Position numbers and translations under genes: made by a program. A stretch of DNA of 64,000 nt from positions 1-64,000 of the forward strand of contig JADGJC010000079.1 in assembly GCA_027596075.1 (NCBI GenBank), in the 5' to 3' direction. The first letter of the stretch is position 1; every line of letters begins with the position of its first letter. Origin of the DNA: Rhizophlyctis rosea. Taxonomy: Eukaryota > Chytridiomycota > Chytridiomycetes > Rhizophlyctidales > Rhizophlyctidaceae. Of this stretch, positions 1 to 53,301 are shown one piece after another. The notes under the pieces are model-generated. The model saw nothing but the letters and a program-made list of their open reading frames with translations, did no database searches and had not been told where the DNA came from.

Positions 1-1689
1 CGTAACCCATCCAACAATTCGCCAAAGTCTCCACTACCGATCCACCTCCCGAACTTTCCCCAAATTCTCCTTCTACTCCAGAATTTGTCCCCTGACTCCC
101 CTCTCGACCGAACCCTGAACGTCCCTCACACAATCCGTACACTCCACTCAACTCCATCCGATTCTCTCCATTTCCTCCAACTCGTCCCGACTCGTCAAAT
201 TCTCCTTCCACCTCCTCGCCTCTCCATTTCCACCCCCTCTCCTCGATCCACTTCTCAACCGCCTTCGTCAACTCCAAATAATATAGATCATTCGCACGTC
301 TAATACTACGCACGCCAATGTCCAAATTATGACTCACCTGATCACAACCAAACACGCTACCACCACTAAACACACTACTACCTATAACCTCCTCTTCACC
401 AGCAGATCCCTCCCATTCACCCATTCCCGTGACTTTCTCCTCTTTATCCCTCCTCTTCACCTTCCTCCAATTAACACCACCCTGTCTCCTCTCTTTATCA
501 ATGACGTCATTCTTTTCCCTTTGATACTCTTCTTCTTCTTTTTGCTTTTCGCACAACATCAAAAACTCCAAAAGATTCAACCCTCCGCGCACGTCGTCCC
601 ATTGAAACTCTTCCCGGTAAGACTTCAGCCGCACATGATTCACCGTCCGCCCTTCAAACAAAAGCTTCCCGTCCAAGTCCTGCACTGTATACGAACCCCC
701 AAGACAGACGTCCCTAATTTGAACAGGTCCCTCCCATCTCGGTAATACCTTATTCTCCACCTTGAACTCATTTGCTGCGCGTGAACCGTACAACCAGACT
801 AAGTCTCCCTCCTTGTACTTCCGTGGTTCCGGTAGATCCTCCTCCTGCTGGGCCGCCCTTTCGTGCTGTTCCTTCCGATGTTCCGCCCGGTATTCCCTCA
901 ACTGTTTCACCAACTCCAAATCAACTAGTCTCCTCTCCGTCAACTCCTTCCCGATGTCCGAAGTAACTTGGTCCAACGGTGCTAACGGGTCTTGCCCAAA
1001 CGCTAACTGGTAGGGGCTCATTCCAGTTACACGCGAAACCTGCACGTTGTATGCAATACCGCCTCCCTCCACACCGTATGCCATCGATGAGCGGCACTCT
1101 TCATGTCCCACCCCTCTGCTCGCGCCCTTGCTACAATCATTCGTGCCAAGACGTATATTATGTCCTCATTGAACCGCTCCGCTCGTCCGTTCCCCTTCGG
1201 ATGCAGCCGCGACGCCTTTAGCAACTCAATCCCCAGCTGACCAGCGTATTTCGCAAATTTGCCCTTAACGAAATACTGCGCATTATCCAGAACAATAAAG
1301 GCCGGTCTCCCGAAATAATCCACCCATTCCCGAACTGCTTCAACCACGCGATGTCCCTTCGTATGCCCTTGAACTGGCTTGACGAATCCCCACCCCGTCG
1401 TATAGTCCACCATGGTAATGAGCTCCGTGTACTTCCCGCTCTTCGGTAACTGCAGCGTATCCATGCCGACCATGGTAAAGCAACTCGCTGGTGGGACTAT
1501 TCGGTACAGTTGGTAACGTGTGGGCCTCCGCGCCCTCCTCTCCGAACAGACTTTGCACCTTTCGATGAATTCCGCCACATCCTGCGACATTCCCGCCCAA
1601 TAGTACCTCTTACTGAGCAGCTGAATCGTCGTTTGCACGCTATGATGCTCTACACCGTGGGATGGTGTTGGTGAGAATTTTGCGGCCAT
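1..1689 (-). mobile_element. Ty3/gypsy-type retrotransposon integrase region, frameshifted, left edge cut
   Basis: Retroviral-type integrase read on the minus strand. From 1689 down it shows an N-terminal zinc-binding region (His residues near the start, then C-x2-C in FIERCKVCSERR), then the catalytic core with D (GMDTLQLP), D (IVLDNAQYF) and E (GNGRAERFNED). The frame stops at 1027. The family sequence resumes in another frame (AYNVQVSRVTGMSPYQLAFG) and stays open to base 1, including a chromodomain-like region (DLVWLYGSRAANEFKVENK). A single-base shift near 1050 therefore breaks the gene. A stop about 45 bases upstream of 1689 and the lack of RNase H or reverse transcriptase sequence up to 2300 suggest 5' truncation. 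No LTR is visible inside the window. Confidence 0.85.
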
Positions 1690-1735
1690 AGTGTGGAGGA
1701 GGCACCAGGAGGAGCGGGCCAGTTCTGCCTGATGC

Positions 1736-2347
1736 TGCGGAGGTGGGTGTTAGGAATTGGATTTGGATTTTGGAAGTCTATCCTTTTGATACGCGAACAA
1801 CAACGATGCCGCGGTGAAGAGAAACCTCCCCACGAAAGCTCTGCCCCGACAAGCAAAACCCTCAAAACCAAAGCACATGAAACTTACCAGCACTCCGACA
1901 CATACACCCCCCACTCCTCCCCAAAACCTTCTCAATAGGTTCCGAACTCGTCACCCAATTGATGACTCGTTAAATTGCCTAATCTATCAAACAATACCAT
2001 CAGCTCGATTTTCAGCTCGAACCCCACAAATCACATACCAATCAAACGACCCAAATCTCACCTCAAACAACCATTCGGCCAGTGCCGTTCCGGAACGCAA
2101 CACCATGCACCGAATCCGTCAACGATCGCGCACAAGCGTGGAAAGATCTTTTGGACCCATGAGGAAGAAACAATGGTCCCTCATGACGCGGCAATTTGAC
2201 ACCATCATAGGTCTTGTGTGATGGCGGTTCTGATGTGCCGCGTGCGCCTTGAGTTCGAGCTCGTGAGTTCAAAACCTCTTTCTCTTCTTCACAGATGTCC
2301 TGAGCGACCAGAGCCAGACGTTGCAATCCGTAGGGCGTTTGCAGATT
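1736..2347. other. Stretch with no supported gene
   Basis: This lies between the integrase remnant and the next gene model. Short open frames exist on both strands, but none shows a family motif or a convincing splice pattern. It may hold further decayed transposon sequence. Confidence 0.4.
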
Positions 2348-7998: not shown

Positions 7999-9232
7999 TT
8001 AGTTTACGCTTTCGAAATACTCTTTGCTGCCCTTAGGGTCAGCCTTCATGCTTTTGTCTACAATTTGGCCATATTAGTCTCCTCACAACATGCTGTGATT
8101 GCTCTTCCAAGCGACGTACCTCCTTTCTTCCATCCAGCCGGGCAGACCTCCTACAATGTGATCATGACAATGAGATCAAAATGTCCGTCAGCAAGCCAAT
8201 GATGATGCACATACCCCATGTTCCTTCGCAAACTGCAACGCGTCCAATAGCCTCAACGTCTCGTCGACGCTCCTTCCGACATTCAAGTCATTGATTGAGA
8301 GGTGACGCACAATGCCCTCCGGATCAATGATGAATGTTCCGCGCAAAGCTAGACCGACGTCGGGACCGGACTCAACCAGAACACCATACTCGTGGGAAAT
8401 GTTCTTCGTGATGTCCGAGACTAAACAGATGGATAAGTCATGTGCGAATGTCATTGACGGGGAGGTGAAGATGCATCCAATGCTTACTAAGAGGATACTT
8501 CAAGTGCCCCAACCCGCCCTCCTTCCTTGGTTGGTTGATCCAGGCAAGGTGAGAGTGCTTGCTGATTTGCGAATTGGGTGGATTAGAACGGGTGCAAGCA
8601 TGAGAGGGATCTGCCATTGTACCTGTCGACACTGCAACCAACAACTTCTGCGCCACGCTCGCGGAACTCTGCGATACGTTCGCTGAACGCAATGATTTCT
8701 GTCGGGCATCTATGAGATAGCTAATAGGTTACCAACTTGTATGTGCAGTACCACCACAAACGCGCCGAAAGCATACACGAAAGTAACTAGAAAAGATGCA
8801 GTTAGCAGAAGTTCGGACGCGCAACGAGAGAAAATCACTCACAATCAAGCGGGTAGAAGAAGAAAACGAGCCTGGATGGGTCAAATGGTCATGAGGGGGC
8901 AGCCGTACAAGTTCGAAGCGTCAACATACCATTTGCCTTTGTAGTCCTCCAAGGAGACATCAGCGAAGTCGCCATCGACTACGGCACCAGCCTCCCATCT
9001 GGGAGCGGGGCTCTAAATTGAGATGGTTGAGTAAAGTCATATATGGGGAAACGAATGTACAAGCTCTACAAACCTGAACGCGGGCGATCTCGTGACGAGG
9101 AGTGTATGTGGTGGAGAAAGAGCGGGTCACGAAAGATGTCGCGCTCGCCGCGGTGGGGAGGACGCGCGGGAAGCGAGTGACCGGTCGAAGCCCAGCGGTG
9201 AGAGAGCGAGTGAAAATCTTGGCAGCGGACAT
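7999..9232 (-). CDS. Mitochondrial typical 2-Cys peroxiredoxin
   Basis: Thiol peroxidase reducing H2O2 and organic peroxides. Nine exons: 9232-9074, 9012-8930, 8871-8843, 8786-8777, 8709-8623, 8561-8488, 8420-8215, 8150-8120, 8057-7999; 245 aa. The first exon is an Arg/Ser/Thr-rich presequence ([17 protein letters not shown]) typical of mitochondrial import. The peroxidatic Cys is about C95 in FYPLDFTFVCPTE and the resolving Cys about C219 in EVCPAGW. GGLG (in [11 protein letters not shown]) and the C-terminal YF mark the hyperoxidation-sensitive class (PRDX3/PRDX1-like). Exon 4 is only 10 nt and encodes most of FTFV. The gene is divergent from the hydroxylase-GT60 gene with 258 nt between the ATGs. 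Confidence 0.95.
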
Positions 9233-9490: not shown

Positions 9491-11421
9491 ATGGACCAGA
9501 AGTTGGTTCACTCGCTTCCCAACGACTTGCAGTTCAAAATCCTCTCCTTGCTCACGCCTCCAAGCCTCTCGTCAGCGATAGGATCGGTTCCTGTTCCAAA
9601 GCCTAACCTGAGAGTTCGAGCAAACGTCATCGACATCCTGAACCGACTCGACGCGGAAGGACATTGCATAGTGGACGACTTTTTGGATATAGCCTTGGCC
9701 AACAGTCTTTTGACTACTTGCAAGGTATGGACTTTGACCAAGTCGCGATAACCCCACGAGAGTCTTCGCTAATTCAGCAGCGGACCAGGACCTGGAACAG
9801 AATGGCCAGCTGCGACCAGCGAAGATGGGAACGGGAGTCACACAGTACGTGAAGACTTGCTTCTTTGCTTTCATGCCAAGGTTGTAACCAGGCAACGTTC
9901 AGGCATAGCAACGAAGCTATTCGCGGCGACAAGCTTCGCTTCCTGCTAATTAGCGAGTTGACGGCAAACACAAATGAACTTCCTGCGACATTTACACCAT
10001 TCAAAGAACTGAAGCAGCATTTTGACACCCTTTCAGCGTCGCTGAACGACAAACTCCCTCAAAATGCTTCGGTCCCGCCATTCACGTCAAAAGGTCTCCA
10101 AGTCGCCTTCTACCCTGGCAATGGCGCCCGTTATGTGAAGCACCGCGATGCTTCGCCATTAAACCCCAACCGAAGGATCACAATGATCTTATATCTGAAC
10201 AAAGATTGGTCACCAAAAAATGGAGGTCAATTGAGGATCTATCGGTCAGAAAAGACGCCCGATACGGCCGAGAAGGAACACAATTTCGAAGATATTAGTC
10301 CTCTATTCAATAGGCTGCTTGTGTTCCGGAGTGATATGGAGCATGAGGTCTTAGAATCTTTTGGAGATAGATTCGCAGTCACGATGTGGCTCTACTCGCC
10401 ACATGATTTGGATGCAACTCTCGCAGCATATCGTAATACCCAACGTACGCCCAATAACGACACCATCTTTGTTTCCATCCCATCATACCGCGACCCGGAA
10501 ACAAAACGCACCGTAGAATCTCTCCTGAGTACTGCCAACAATCCATCTCGCATCCATGTAGGCATCTTATACCAAGACGATCCTATCGAGGATGCGGCAA
10601 TACACGATCATACCTCATTGCCCAATACCCCAAACATCCGTGTTACATCAGTCCCAATCTCGGAAGCAAAAGGCCCAGCATACGCCCGCCGAATCATCGC
10701 ACAAACCTTATACAAACACGAAAAATACTACTTCCAAATCGACTCTCATTGCCGATTCGCCAAAGGATGGGATACGTTGCTCATATCCAGTCTGCTCGCC
10801 GCACCACATCCTGCAAAATCGTTGATTACCATGTACCCACCTCCTTACACCCTTCCTGACATCCTTTCGAAACCACCTTACGGCCCTGTCATCATGCGTC
10901 CTGAGAAGTTTGACGACGACGGTATGCTCCGCATCACAGGGCGGCTGACCTTCCCTCCGCCGCCGCCACAACACGACGAGCCGGACACTTTGATCTCTCA
11001 GAAGTTCATCGCCGCCGGATGCCTCTTCGCCCCTGCTAAGGAGCTTCTGACTGATCTTAACGAAGGAGGCGGTGACGCCGCACAATGGGCGGGATTGTTC
11101 TTTGGGGAAGAAGTCGCGCAATCGGCAATTTTATGGACGCGCGGGTGGCGGTTTTGGACGCCGAGGGATGGTACCAAACCTATCATTTGGCATTTGTGGC
11201 AGCGTAGCTATAGGAGAACGTTTCAGGAGAATATGGATAGTGATGCTGGTGGGCATGGGTCGTTGAAGGAGGTACGGGCGGTTTCGCAGAAGAGGATTAG
11301 AGTCAGTTTGAGGATGGAAAATGGGGAAGTAGATAGGCCTTTGGTGATGGGAGAGGGATGTACGTTGGCGGAGTTTGAAGGGTTTGTAGGTGTCAAGTTT
11401 GCGGAGAAGAGAATAGAGTGA
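9491..11421 (+). CDS. Fusion: prolyl 4-hydroxylase + GT60 (Skp1-type) GlcNAc-transferase
   Basis: Exons 9491-9724, 9789-9848, 9892-11421; 607 aa. Residues about 1-30 (LPNDLQFKILSLLTPPSL) look like the first half of an F-box. Residues about 45-270 are a 2-oxoglutarate/Fe(II) prolyl hydroxylase with iron ligands H182 and D184 (VKHRD), H249 (MEHEVL) and 2OG-binding R258, closest in style to the PHD/PhyA group. From about 290 it is a GT60-type glycosyltransferase: IFVSIPSYRDPET at the start, YYFQIDSH (D382) as the metal/nucleotide site, later FFGEEVAQSAILWTRGW. In Dictyostelium, PhyA hydroxylates Skp1 and Gnt1 (GT60) adds GlcNAc to the new hydroxyproline, as separate proteins. No signal peptide, so cytoplasmic. 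Neighbours: peroxiredoxin (divergent) and GNA1 (convergent). Confidence 0.9.
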
Positions 11422-11647: not shown

Positions 11648-12659
11648 TCATGGTCTATAATTAGCCATCATCTGACTTTTTGGTTTGAACCCGCACTTTT
11701 CGTAGAAGCCGATTTTGTCGTGTGCGCAGTTAAGGATCACCTGTGTTGGATCGATGAGGATCCATGTCCAAAACGCCGTGCGTCAGCACACTCTCGTCAA
11801 CCGCCTTTACCTTGTACGCTTTCCGCTCGTCCGCAATGTGCACCAAGGCTTTAATGATCCTAATCAAGTGCACGCCAAGTCTTCAGCAACCAACGTCAAT
11901 GACTGAACGCCATATGCAGAGTTGTCATTACCATTTGCCCAAACTCTTTCCGCGTGTGTCTTCGTGAACGACGATATCTGCGTGCGCAAAGGTGTCTTCA
12001 GCAATTGACCATCATGGCAAGTGACATGATGGATGCACAGGCGCGTACCCTCAATATGTGCTGCAATTCCGTTCTCATGTAGGAACTTGTGGTCGAGGAG
12101 TAACGACCCCGCTCTGAGTATAGCTATAGTTGTCAAATTTTGTGGCGTGGGAATCGTCATGTGTCAAAAGGGGTTTACCCTACAATCCGCTCCTTGTCGA
12201 CATCTTCAATCACTAGCGTGTAGTGTACGTCATTTCTGTGTTGCAGCCAGTGGAAGCGTTCTGCGATATGAAGACGGTTAAAATCAATCGCATCATATAT
12301 GTCACAGTTCGTGAGTTTTTGATGGACTGAGTCATGAGATATTCACCTCGGTACTTTTCTTTGGAGATGTTTCCGACTTCAGAAAGCTGTCCCAGTAAGG
12401 GTATGAAGCCTGACCAAAGCCCAGAAAGAAAACATTCATTGTCAGAAAACGCGTGCAGATGGTGCAATGATCTTTGACGGGTCGTACCCTTATCGTAGTC
12501 CCCGATGTGCAGCGGCCGCAAGAGGTAGCCGGGTGGTAATGCCTTTTGGACGTCTTCTGATATCAGTCCGTCTGGAAACTGATAGTCGTCAACGTAGGAG
12601 ACGTATGGAGGTTCTGTTGATTCGTGTGGTTTGGGGTCCATTGTGGTTGCAGATGACAT
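11648..12659 (-). CDS. GNA1: Glucosamine-6-phosphate N-acetyltransferase
   Basis: GNAT-fold enzyme making GlcNAc-6-P from GlcN-6-P and acetyl-CoA on the way to UDP-GlcNAc (chitin, glycosylation). Seven exons: 12659-12488, 12409-12347, 12260-12179, 12113-12049, 11977-11932, 11859-11811, 11740-11648; 189 aa. Visible family signatures: LRPLHIGDYDKGF, LSEVGNISKEKY, DVHYTLVIEDV, KFLHENGIAAHIEDIVV, the acetyl-CoA loop DTRGKSLGKW, and the C-terminal VILNCAHDKIGFYEKCGFK. All joins are in phase. It converges on the hydroxylase-GT60 gene (227 nt between stops), whose glycosyltransferase would use UDP-GlcNAc. The first ATG of the frame (12659) was chosen; another Met follows six residues later. Confidence 0.95.
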
Positions 12660-13012
12660 GATAACGTGAAGGGAAAGGAAAGGTTTAGCCTGCCGCAACT
12701 CGGGAAGAAGGTTTCATTTTGTGGCGGCGCAACCGAAATGAATACCTTACACAAATCCGATAGATCGGACAGTGTCACAGGATGTGGCGGTTTGAAACCC
12801 CACCCTGGCTTGCACGACGTCATTCAACTAACACCGCCACAAACTAGCATTTTTCCCATTGACTTTTTAACACTTTTGACTTGCCATCTATTCTCACAAC
12901 CACCAACTATATTTAACACATGCTATTCACACAATCTCGTCGGACAACCAAACTCCAACTACTGAACCTCACATCACTCCTACTCCTTGTCATCCTCCTC
13001 TTCAACCCCAAA

Positions 13013-50658: not shown

Positions 50659-50772
50659 TGGTGGGGAAATAACTCCTCCCCAGATTTCCCACACCACCAT
50701 CAACATCCTTCTTACAAGCTCGTGCTAAGAGGTAGATAACCCGTACCATATAAATAGACGGCAACTGCAACC

Positions 50773-53301
50773 ATGGCGTCCACATATATACCGCGCGAAA
50801 TGAAATCCTTGGACGATCTCCTTCCTGACGTCGACGCATGTCCGCCACCTCACGGAAACTCAACCATACGGACAGACATTTCAGTCTCCGGCGCCAACGT
50901 GTTTGCCATCGATGACTTCTTGTCAGACGAGGAGTGCGAATACTTCAAGAATTTGGCAGAGAGGTTGGGCTTCGAGTCCGTGGAGTGGGAGTATGCGAAG
51001 GACTATCGAGACTGTGTGCGAGTGGGTGGGTTTATCTTGATTTGTTTACAATCGCGAAGCAAGGGCTCATGTGGTGTTGCTTCCATAGTCGGTAAAAGCG
51101 AAACACTATCTAATACCTTATGGAGCCGTATCCTGCCCCATCTGCGTCGATCAGACCTACTCGCTCGCCCATATGGGTTTGGCGCATCGAAGGGAGTGTG
51201 GGTGCCCAAGGGTGTGAATCCCTGCATCCGCTTCACCAAGTACACGTCTGGTGGTCATTTCAGCCCTCACCGAGATGGCGGTTTTGTTATCACCGATTCA
51301 TATCGCTCGGTATACACCCTTCTCATCTATCTCAACGACGATTTCAAAGGGGGCAAAACTCGTTTTCATCCCGACGATGAAGAAGGGATGACTGCCACCG
51401 TTGATCCTAAGCGTGGCACGGCAATCGTTTTCAATCATGATGTGAAACACGAAGGCCAAGCGATGGAGGACGGAGCGAAGTATATTATCAGAACGGACAT
51501 TATGTTTGAACGTGTAGACTTAGACCTACCGGGAACCGGCGCGGACGCGGCGTACACCTCTCACCCTCGTTACAAAGAAGCTGAACGATTGTACAATAGA
51601 TCTATAGAGCTCCAACAGCAAGGTGATCCCAGAGGTAGCACAGAAGCATACTTGAAAGCGATGGAAATCCATGCCACCCTTCCGTCCATCCTCCCTCAGC
51701 TAGTAACCGGCAACAAAGCACTCGACGTCCTGCCATTAGAACTCTGGACCAAAATCCTCCTGTACTTCCAACCCAAAACCCTTGCCGTTCTCTCCCGAGT
51801 CAACGCCAAATTCTGCCAAATCGCACGCGACCCCTTCGTCTGGTCCGCCCTATACAAATCCCGCTTCCCCGAACACCACGCGGCCGTCGCGTCCTCCATC
51901 CGCGCAAAACTCTCCCTCATCCAAACGGGAACGGTGACAAGCATGATGGGCGACGAGAACATCGCGTTGGCGTGGGATTGGTATTCGTTGTATAAGCATA
52001 GGGCGACGGCAGAGAAGTTTTTCCAGCCGGTATTTTTCGATGTTGGGTCGCGATATACTAAGTTTGGTGGATTGGGAATGGATGTGTTGAAGAAGCCCGG
52101 AAGTTGGTGGGAGTATGAAGTGACCTCGTCGGATGAGGACAGCGACGAAGACACACCTTCTGCCCCACGCCGTACTCGAAAACGTGGTCCCGACACCGTC
52201 CCCGTCGGTCACATCCGCAGTGTCTTTGTCCGCCAATCAGGACACTACTGGTCCGCAGGCAGCGGGTACTGCGACGTGACGGTCCACGGTGCCGGTCGGG
52301 AAGTTGAGTACGACCATACTCAACGCATTGAAAGCGAGCGTGAATACTGGCGGCAGCGGACGGAGCAGTTTTCGTTCCAGCCCTACCGGTTGGATTGGCA
52401 GGAAGGGGAACGAAGAAATTGGGTAGCGGAGGGGGAGGTTGATCCGACTACTTTTGAGACTATTGTGCATTTTGTGATGCAGAAGAGTTTTAGGCATCGT
52501 TGGATGAGTCCTAGTTCGCATCCAGTAAGTCGAAGAAATTCATTTCTTATTGCTAAGACGTGCCGACGGCCTTTTTCTGACTTTCAATTTACTCCCAATA
52601 TCCCTCAGTTCATCTTCGCCCTACCTCCATTCCTCTCCCCACCCGCTCACCGCGCCCTCATCTCCATAATAGTCAAGCTCCATATCCCATACATGGCACT
52701 AATAGACGCCGCCGTCCTCTCCCTCCTCCCACACGCCCTCTCCACCGCCGTCGTCGTGTCAATCGGAGCCTCTCACGTCTGGGTCGCACCCATAGATAAA
52801 TGCAAACCCGTCTACAAGTATCCTTTGCCTGTTTTCCGCATTCCGAATAAGACGGGTTGGCTGAAACGTCTACCGGAGGCGGATTTGGAGGCGTTGTTCT
52901 TCACGGAACCTGTAAACACCACAACTCCACCAAAAAGCGTCGACCTCCTCACCCTCATCACATCCGCTCTTTCCCTCCTTCCCTCCACGCCCAAACCACC
53001 ACCCATCCTCCTAACGGGAGGTCAAGCGCCCTACATCCACGCACTCCTTAAACGCCACCTCCCCACCAACCAAATCATCCTCTCCGCAAAGCCCGACGAG
53101 GACATCGTGCGCGGGGCGGAGGTGTTTGCGTCGTTGCCGGGGGCGAGGAGCGCGTATGTGAATCTGGAGACCTATAATAAGATTATGGGGGATGATGGGA
53201 AGAAGGAACGGGATAGGACGTATGATTTATATTGGTATAGTGAGCAGAAGCAGAAGGATGTGGTTTTGGAGGAGTATATGAGGGAGAGGGGGTATGAGTG
53301 A
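50773..53301 (+). CDS. Fusion: prolyl 4-hydroxylase + F-box + actin-like domain
   Basis: Exons 50773-51025, 51089-52524, 52609-53301; 793 aa. Residues 40-225 are a 2OG/Fe(II) prolyl hydroxylase: IDDFLSDEEC at the start, H145 and D147 (SPHRDGG), H205 (VKHEGQ), and basic K215/R219 for 2OG. Residues about 245-285 look like a TPR-type helix pair (YKEAERLYNRSIELQQQG). The F-box is at about 297-341 (LDVLPLELWTKILLYFQPKT, VNAKFCQIARDPFVW). From about 395 an actin-related fold begins: VFFDVGSRYTKFGG (phosphate-1-like), later FIFALPPFLSPPAHRALISI, VVVSIGASHVWVAPI and ILLTGGQAPYIHALL. F-box proteins bind Skp1. Both introns are multiples of three without stops, so the unspliced frame is also open. Confidence 0.9.
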   Translation: MASTYIPREMKSLDDLLPDVDACPPPHGNSTIRTDISVSGANVFAIDDFLSDEECEYFKNLAERLGFESVEWEYAKDYRDCVRVGGFILICLQSRSKGSCGVASIVGKSETLSNTLWSRILPHLRRSDLLARPYGFGASKGVWVPKGVNPCIRFTKYTSGGHFSPHRDGGFVITDSYRSVYTLLIYLNDDFKGGKTRFHPDDEEGMTATVDPKRGTAIVFNHDVKHEGQAMEDGAKYIIRTDIMFERVDLDLPGTGADAAYTSHPRYKEAERLYNRSIELQQQGDPRGSTEAYLKAMEIHATLPSILPQLVTGNKALDVLPLELWTKILLYFQPKTLAVLSRVNAKFCQIARDPFVWSALYKSRFPEHHAAVASSIRAKLSLIQTGTVTSMMGDENIALAWDWYSLYKHRATAEKFFQPVFFDVGSRYTKFGGLGMDVLKKPGSWWEYEVTSSDEDSDEDTPSAPRRTRKRGPDTVPVGHIRSVFVRQSGHYWSAGSGYCDVTVHGAGREVEYDHTQRIESEREYWRQRTEQFSFQPYRLDWQEGERRNWVAEGEVDPTTFETIVHFVMQKSFRHRWMSPSSHPVSRRNSFLIAKTCRRPFSDFQFTPNIPQFIFALPPFLSPPAHRALISIIVKLHIPYMALIDAAVLSLLPHALSTAVVVSIGASHVWVAPIDKCKPVYKYPLPVFRIPNKTGWLKRLPEADLEALFFTEPVNTTTPPKSVDLLTLITSALSLLPSTPKPPPILLTGGQAPYIHALLKRHLPTNQIILSAKPDEDIVRGAEVFASLPGARSAYVNLETYNKIMGDDGKKERDRTYDLYWYSEQKQKDVVLEEYMRERGYE

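Follow-up and report, generated by a model that had tools for sequence, protein, structure and literature searches.

The locus at positions 9491-11421 (+) raises the question of whether a fungus carries, on a single polypeptide chain, the two enzymes that act one after the other on Skp1 in the oxygen-sensing pathway of protists, and of how such a protein might find its substrate. The stretch of DNA analyzed (hereafter the window) comprises positions 1 to 64,000 of a contig from Rhizophlyctis rosea, a saprotrophic chytrid, and the locus encodes a single 602-aa protein in which a PhyA/EGLN-type prolyl 4-hydroxylase is followed by a GT60 GlcNAc-transferase. With a probability of about 0.8, this gene encodes a bifunctional, O2-dependent Skp1 hydroxylase/GlcNAc-transferase of the same type as the enzyme known from Pythium. 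The substrate, the order of the reactions, and the role of O2 ascribed to it are those that its characterized relatives suggest.

Gene Structure

Several three-exon models link the ATG at 9491 to the stop codon ending at 11421, and all of them are open. In the model adopted here, exon 1 (9491-9724, +) encodes the N-terminal motif, the linker, and the start of the hydroxylase domain, and is followed by intron 1 (9725-9788, +), at a join crossed by conserved sequence, exon 2 (9789-9844, +), intron 2 (9845-9902, +), and exon 3 (9903-11421, +), which supplies the remaining hydroxylase and the entire GT60 domain in one open frame that includes the stop. The 602-aa product is 100% identical over its full length to a public prediction annotated as ‘Egl nine 3 [Rhizophlyctis rosea]’ (P0001), which matches it in exon 1, exon 2, and the placement of intron 2. 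The original prediction had set the second intron at 9849-9891; the resulting 607-aa model is open too, but it contains five extra residues and aligns more poorly with seven chytrid relatives (summed alignment scores of 656 versus 732 for the 602-aa model), and it was rejected. With 9845-9902 as the best placement of intron 2, the residue numbers given originally drop by five. The two upstream exon joins are predicted solely from conservation. Exon 3 lies inside a 522-codon open frame (9853-11421) that contains both a complete 2OG fold and a complete GT60 domain, and the single frame proposed earlier for the two domains is thereby borne out: since their junction falls inside the uninterrupted exon 9903-11421, the fusion is one gene and not two.

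Several other genes were noted in the window. Tail to tail with the fusion gene, at ~11860-12713 (-), lies what looks like a gene for glucosamine-6-phosphate N-acetyltransferase (GNA1), an enzyme that supplies the UDP-GlcNAc used by GT60; a 121-aa segment assembled by eye matches 2vez (E 1.8e-21), and single frames give 0.065, 0.6, or no match. The upstream gene on the opposite strand (8188-8499, -) encodes an AhpC/TSA peroxiredoxin (E 9.5e-9), and a frame at 1027-1749 (-) resembles, by eye, a retrotransposon integrase. A second link between a 2OG oxygenase and an F-box within the window is found in an 847-codon open frame at 50758-53301 (+), which matches a 2OG oxygenase (E 2.5e-11), an F-box (E 1.4e-6), and, in a weak part, an actin-like protein (E 0.0072).

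Catalytic Domains

Both domains, and the families to which they had been assigned, are confirmed by Pfam, where 2OG-FeII_Oxy_3 (PF13640, E 4.4e-21) and GlcNAc (PF11397, E 3.1e-46) score far above their cut-offs, and by a comparison with PDB sequences, in which the first domain matches 6t8m best (E 1.3e-26, 96.5 bits), an entry titled as a Dictyostelium hypoxia-sensing prolyl hydroxylase, with EGLN1 chains next (best 77.9 bits). Sequence likeness thus favors the Skp1 hydroxylase PhyA over the HIF hydroxylases, and a fold search ties the two (PHD2, E 6.3e-18; PhyA 6t8m, 9.9e-18). NCBIfam gave no match for the three fusion proteins examined. An AF2 model of P0001 has a mean pLDDT of 91.1 and a pTM of 0.73.

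The 2OG-Fe(II) oxygenase fold spans 10096-10395 (+; residues 162-261) and contains the catalytic residues H177 and D179 (10141-10149, +) and H244 (10342-10344, +) of the HxD...H arrangement, together with the 2OG-binding R253 (10369-10371, +). The GT60 domain (PF11397; 10462-11328, +, by profile match and alignment) includes D377-S-H379 (10741-10749, +) within the QIDSH sequence at residues 375-379. These catalytic residues, named in the original prediction, are intact under the new numbering: the columns of H177, D179, H244, R253, D377, and H379 are invariant in an alignment of 33 sequences, the hydroxylase H, D, H, and R are kept in all 18 hydroxylase-GT60 relatives compared by pairwise mapping, and the GT60 metal-binding residues are present, the acidic motif being kept and D377 and H379 being found in 24 of 24 proteins compared in the same way.

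Distribution and Evolution of the Fusion

A single-sequence search from the R. rosea protein recovered 165 proteins at E <= 0.001; among the best 120 of these, with domain order scored using domains cut from P0001, 72 have the hydroxylase-GT60 order, 13 the reversed GT60-hydroxylase order, and 35 GT60 only. Fungal names are borne by 17 of the 72 hydroxylase-GT60 records listed (Rhizophlyctis (2), Spizellomyces, Borealophlyctis, Nowakowskiella (2), Irineochytrium, Physocladia, Blyttiomyces, Phlyctochytrium, Chytriomyces (3), Obelidium, Cladochytrium, Thamnocephalis, and Gonapodya), and a profile search built on 14 fungal sequences (best 120 of 145 matches) brought in no other named fungal genus; as scoring in both searches was confined to the ~8000 candidates with the most words in common, the fungal spread is a lower bound. 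Other carriers of this order include green algae, an oomycete, a diatom, and Naegleria, and among the names listed are Pythium insidiosum, Trebouxia, Coccomyxa, Parachlorella, Chlamydomonas eustigma, Pleodorina, Edaphochlamys, Chaetoceros, Tribonema, Ochromonas, and Naegleria fowleri. Of the reversed-order proteins, three of 13 carry names, namely Effrenium, Durusdinium, and an entry reading ‘Dinophy’.

At least 17 named fungal records therefore combine the two domains in the hydroxylase-GT60 order. The statement in the original prediction that no fungal fusion of this kind has been described may hold in the strict sense, since none was found in the literature searched, although these fungal records exist under automatic names. 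The fusion is not new as a kind, since a dual-function Skp1 prolyl 4-hydroxylase/N-acetylglucosaminyltransferase of the plant pathogen Pythium ultimum is, by its title, in print (van der Wel, Gas-Pascual and West 2019, Glycobiology 29:705), and a review describes consecutive (odd-even) pairs of the six Skp1 pathway enzymes as often fused in protists (PMC8724618). The R. rosea protein thus adds a fungal member to a known kind.

The R. rosea genome holds one GT60 gene, and no second relative of the hydroxylase was detected in it. Two records that both bear the name Rhizophlyctis rosea, P0001 and P0002, share only 59% identity, and together with the single GT60 gene found here, this suggests that the name may cover distant lineages.

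Trees of the two domains were built without partial or near-copy rows. In the GT60 tree (88 rows; quick method with SH-aLRT and no bootstrap), the 17 fungal sequences form one group (support 99), so that the fungal fusion looks, by its GT60 part, to have been inherited within fungi, and the 13 reversed-order sequences form another (SH-aLRT 97). The hydroxylase tree (83 rows) is weakly resolved; the fungi do not form one group in it, four changes being needed, and the reversed-order group (support 83) is placed among the hydroxylases of hydroxylase-GT60 proteins, including those of Chaetoceros, Tribonema, and Pythium. From these sequences, the reversed domain order looks to have arisen once, through either permutation or a second fusion.

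GT60 domains are also paired with 2OG domains in bacteria. Eight of 80 bacterial GT60 loci (L041, L042, L043, L044, L045, L062, L066, and L076), from Rickettsiales and other Alphaproteobacteria MAGs, encode, in a single frame, between two and four tandem GT60 copies with a 2OG oxygenase domain at the C-terminus, some of the proteins exceeding 2000 residues. The 2OG part of P0118, P0136, P0139, P0147, P0148, P0151, and P0152 gives no match to the hydroxylase profile, and L062 is the only one of the eight loci whose 2OG part does match. P0136, which appears as a GT60-GT2 fusion in a precomputed Pfam list, actually consists of three GT60 repeats and a 2OG domain. Bacteria are not known to have Skp1; the domain pairing alone therefore does not name Skp1 as the substrate, and its occurrence in these predicted proteins is a sign that it can arise without Skp1.

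The N-Terminal Motif

The N-terminal motif (9515-9553, +; residues 9-21, LPNDLQFKILSLL) lies in register with F-box helix 1 and follows the pattern LPxxLQxKILxxL, of which no description was found in the literature searched and which is apparently undescribed so far. Its conservation among the fungal members matches that of the catalytic domains: across an alignment of 14 sequences, L9 is invariant and P10, I17, and L18 are nearly so in otherwise unconserved surroundings, and the mean majority-residue fraction is 0.62 for residues 9-21, compared with 0.31 for residues 1-8, 0.29 for residues 22-50, 0.62 for the 2OG fold, and 0.57 for residues 283-540. Each of the 15 fungal models whose N-terminus is intact has the motif; those from Irineochytrium and Cladochytrium either begin further downstream or lack it. 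In the AF2 model of P0001, residues 11-21 form a helix (pLDDT ~65), followed by a linker below 60 and then by the two confident domains.

Since the fungal motif windows were picked by a pattern requiring LP and L, the fungal rows are no test of the motif. Among 37 hydroxylase-GT60 N-termini not named as fungal (some near copies included), 22 score above the 99% shuffle level with the fungal motif profile and 20 above the 99.9% level, among them those of Trebouxia, Coccomyxa, Pleodorina, Chlamydomonas eustigma, and Naegleria, and none of 76 control N-termini exceeds the 99% level. The 15 that fall below it include the diatom Chaetoceros and Pythium insidiosum (-0.5), the latter being the relative closest to the characterized enzyme, which counts against a docking role for the motif. 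Two unnamed proteins, P0072 and P0080, have a second copy of the motif (LLPENLQLKILSLV) in the linker, immediately before GT60. A search for stand-alone hydroxylases returned 15 proteins, mostly short and of bacterial type, with Dictyostelium PhyA not among them.

The reversed-order proteins place a similar element elsewhere in the chain. All 13 have an LP-type helix between GT60 and the hydroxylase, in one aligned block and with proline at position 2 in 12, and this helix is the best match of the fungal motif profile within the GT60-hydroxylase linker in 12 of the 13; singly, p is below 0.05 in four of 13, and the combined p is 1.3e-6 for rows that are related. In the model of one such protein (P0035; mean pLDDT 71.0), it forms the helix at residues 353-362, inside a low-confidence linker (337-377). 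In both domain orders, therefore, the motif lies just N-terminal to the hydroxylase, as would be expected of a tethered docking element.

A full three-helix F-box is ruled out by the Pfam F-box score of the 602-aa protein, which lies below the cut-off (12.4 bits versus 24.3, E 0.14) and spans no more than positions 2-23 of the 47 in the profile; of the three helices, helix 1 alone is present. The motif aligns with the F-box profile in one register (LPpELLlqIFSYL, 17.8 bits; next register, 1.4 bits), a score reached by none of 2000 column permutations, though the highest permutation gave 17.6. N-termini were considered fit for testing where they began with Met and had at least 30 residues ahead of the hydroxylase, which applied to 59 of the 72 hydroxylase-GT60 proteins (55 without near copies). 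A helix-1 profile made from R. rosea F-boxes, in which four or five of the 27 training windows were out of register, places 23 of the 59 above the 99% shuffle level versus one of 48 controls, and in the reverse test the motif profile picks out 11 of 30 R. rosea F-boxes. Pfam matches to 48 of the 55 N-termini, a favorable subset because the seven without the motif by eye were omitted, comprise F-box (five), F-box-like (five), and one each for every other family, all of them weak (best E 0.0048). The absence of helices 2 and 3 counts against docking, as does the partial resemblance to F-box helix 1 that any LP-capped amphipathic helix will show.

Substrate and Proposed Mechanism

By analogy with its characterized relatives, the N-terminal EGLN/PhyA-type domain would consume O2 and 2-oxoglutarate in the 4-hydroxylation of a proline close to the Skp1 C-terminus, and the GT60 domain would next transfer GlcNAc onto the resulting hydroxyproline. 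As hydroxylation uses O2, the rate of modification would follow O2, and the modification would in turn alter which F-box proteins Skp1 takes up. The R. rosea genome contains four Skp1 loci (contigs C79, C451, C148, and C246), and the expected target proline is kept in all four (NIVNDFTPEEE in two, NIVNDFSPEEE, and NIENDFTPEEE). The Skp1 of organisms that lack the enzyme or the pathway often retains this proline too, so its presence proves little about the substrate.

The N-terminal helix may possibly, at odds somewhat short of even, represent half an F-box through which the enzyme docks at the F-box site of Skp1. The motif would then occupy the Skp1 F-box groove beside the target proline, with the disordered linker tethering it to the hydroxylase. 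A broader and slightly more tentative proposal is that in many eukaryotes the Skp1-modifying hydroxylase modules bear a tethered half F-box on their N-terminal side that docks in the F-box groove of their own substrate. Only Skp1 free of F-box proteins would then be modified, and the enzyme would act as a pseudo-F-box protein, in competition with those ubiquitin-ligase receptors that assemble under its control, the motif staying with the hydroxylase in reversed-order proteins as well. Whether the helix is instead something other than an F-box element, such as a nuclear export signal, a membrane-binding or self-association element, or a lid of the hydroxylase, is about an even bet. The hydrophobic spacing of LQFKILSL (residues 13-20), which also fits one class of export signal, counts in this direction, as do the LP-helix variants of some stramenopile members and of the reversed-order proteins, which are little like F-boxes. 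An export signal, however, requires neither the proline at position 2 nor the I-L pair at positions 9-10 (0.93 each in fungi), no Pfam families other than F-box and F-box-like are matched by more than one N-terminus of the favorable subset, and AF2 predicts the motif, with low confidence, as separate from the high-confidence domains, an arrangement with which a loose lid would still be compatible.

The remaining alternatives concern the Skp1 reading itself and the purpose of the fusion. An artefact of two adjacent genes merged in one model is wholly improbable: the gene model is a prediction from sequence, but the junction lies in one open exon, and the same domain order recurs in 72 of the 120 homologues listed, some of which stem from transcript collections (eukprot, mmetsp). 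The idea of the original prediction that the fusion couples hydroxylation to capping, as a processive enzyme by which free Skp1 hydroxyproline is never exposed, is unlikely. The Pythium enzyme paper reportedly gives no kinetic evidence for processive handling of Skp1, PhyA and Gnt1 work free-standing in Dictyostelium and Toxoplasma, and the occurrence of both domain orders argues against one fixed hand-over geometry. In its favor are the two consecutive activities on a single chain and a passage in a review stating that such fusions possibly support processive processing (PMC8724618). Also improbable is a genuine hydroxylase/GlcNAc-transferase whose main substrate in chytrids is a protein other than Skp1, with the F-box look incidental. 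The bacterial GT60-2OG proteins indicate that the pair can serve other substrates, and one report links a Toxoplasma prolyl hydroxylase to translation elongation (PMC6437050). However, the 2OG part of seven of the bacterial proteins is missed by the hydroxylase profile (that of L062 does match), the first domain of the R. rosea protein is nearest in sequence to the Dictyostelium Skp1 hydroxylase, and the four local Skp1s retain the target site. A bifunctional Skp1 hydroxylase/GlcNAc-transferase therefore remains the preferred reading of the gene.

Comparison With Known Systems

If this reading is correct, a protist O2-sensing pathway would be extended to fungi, for which the saprotrophic R. 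rosea would offer a benign model. One review limits Skp1 glycosylation to protists (PMC8724618) and another source describes it as apparently restricted to protists and ‘pathogenic fungi’ (PMC12101541), compared with the at least 17 named fungal records found here. A structural study places determinants of Skp1 recognition outside the PhyA active site and describes a crystallized DdPhyA without residues 1-59 (PMC7864055). If the motif docks on Skp1, it would account for the recognition of a folded substrate by Skp1 hydroxylases through such contacts, and modification would be tied to the F-box-free state of Skp1.

A precedent for docking is JcdI/Fbxo13, likewise a 2OG enzyme, which binds Skp1 through an F-box at its N-terminus (PMC9485057). 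As described there, it differs from the R. rosea protein in its full F-box, its JmjC fold, and its lack of a glycosyltransferase, and modification of Skp1 by it is not known. Dictyostelium AgtA belongs to the same pathway and likewise has a separate Skp1-acting module (a WD40 propeller), although both the domain and the step differ from those of R. rosea (PMC8724618). The EGLN/PHD2 HIF prolyl hydroxylases share the fold and the iron and 2OG ligands, consistent with the automatic annotation of the R. rosea protein, but they have no GT60 domain, and PhyA is closer by sequence, the two being level by fold. PhyA and Gnt1 of Dictyostelium and Toxoplasma have homologous domains (6t8m being the top PDB sequence match, and a Cavenderia GlcNAc transferase reaching 35% identity over 54% of the R. 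rosea query), but they are separate proteins, whereas the R. rosea enzyme is one chain with an N-terminal helix motif. The Pythium insidiosum protein P0024 has the same order of hydroxylase then GT60, and differs in its 32% identity and in a weak N-terminal motif (LSPQLQALVEASL, score -0.5). The characterized Pythium ultimum enzyme resembles that of R. rosea in carrying both activities on one chain and, as its title states, in acting on Skp1 (van der Wel, Gas-Pascual and West 2019, Glycobiology 29:705).
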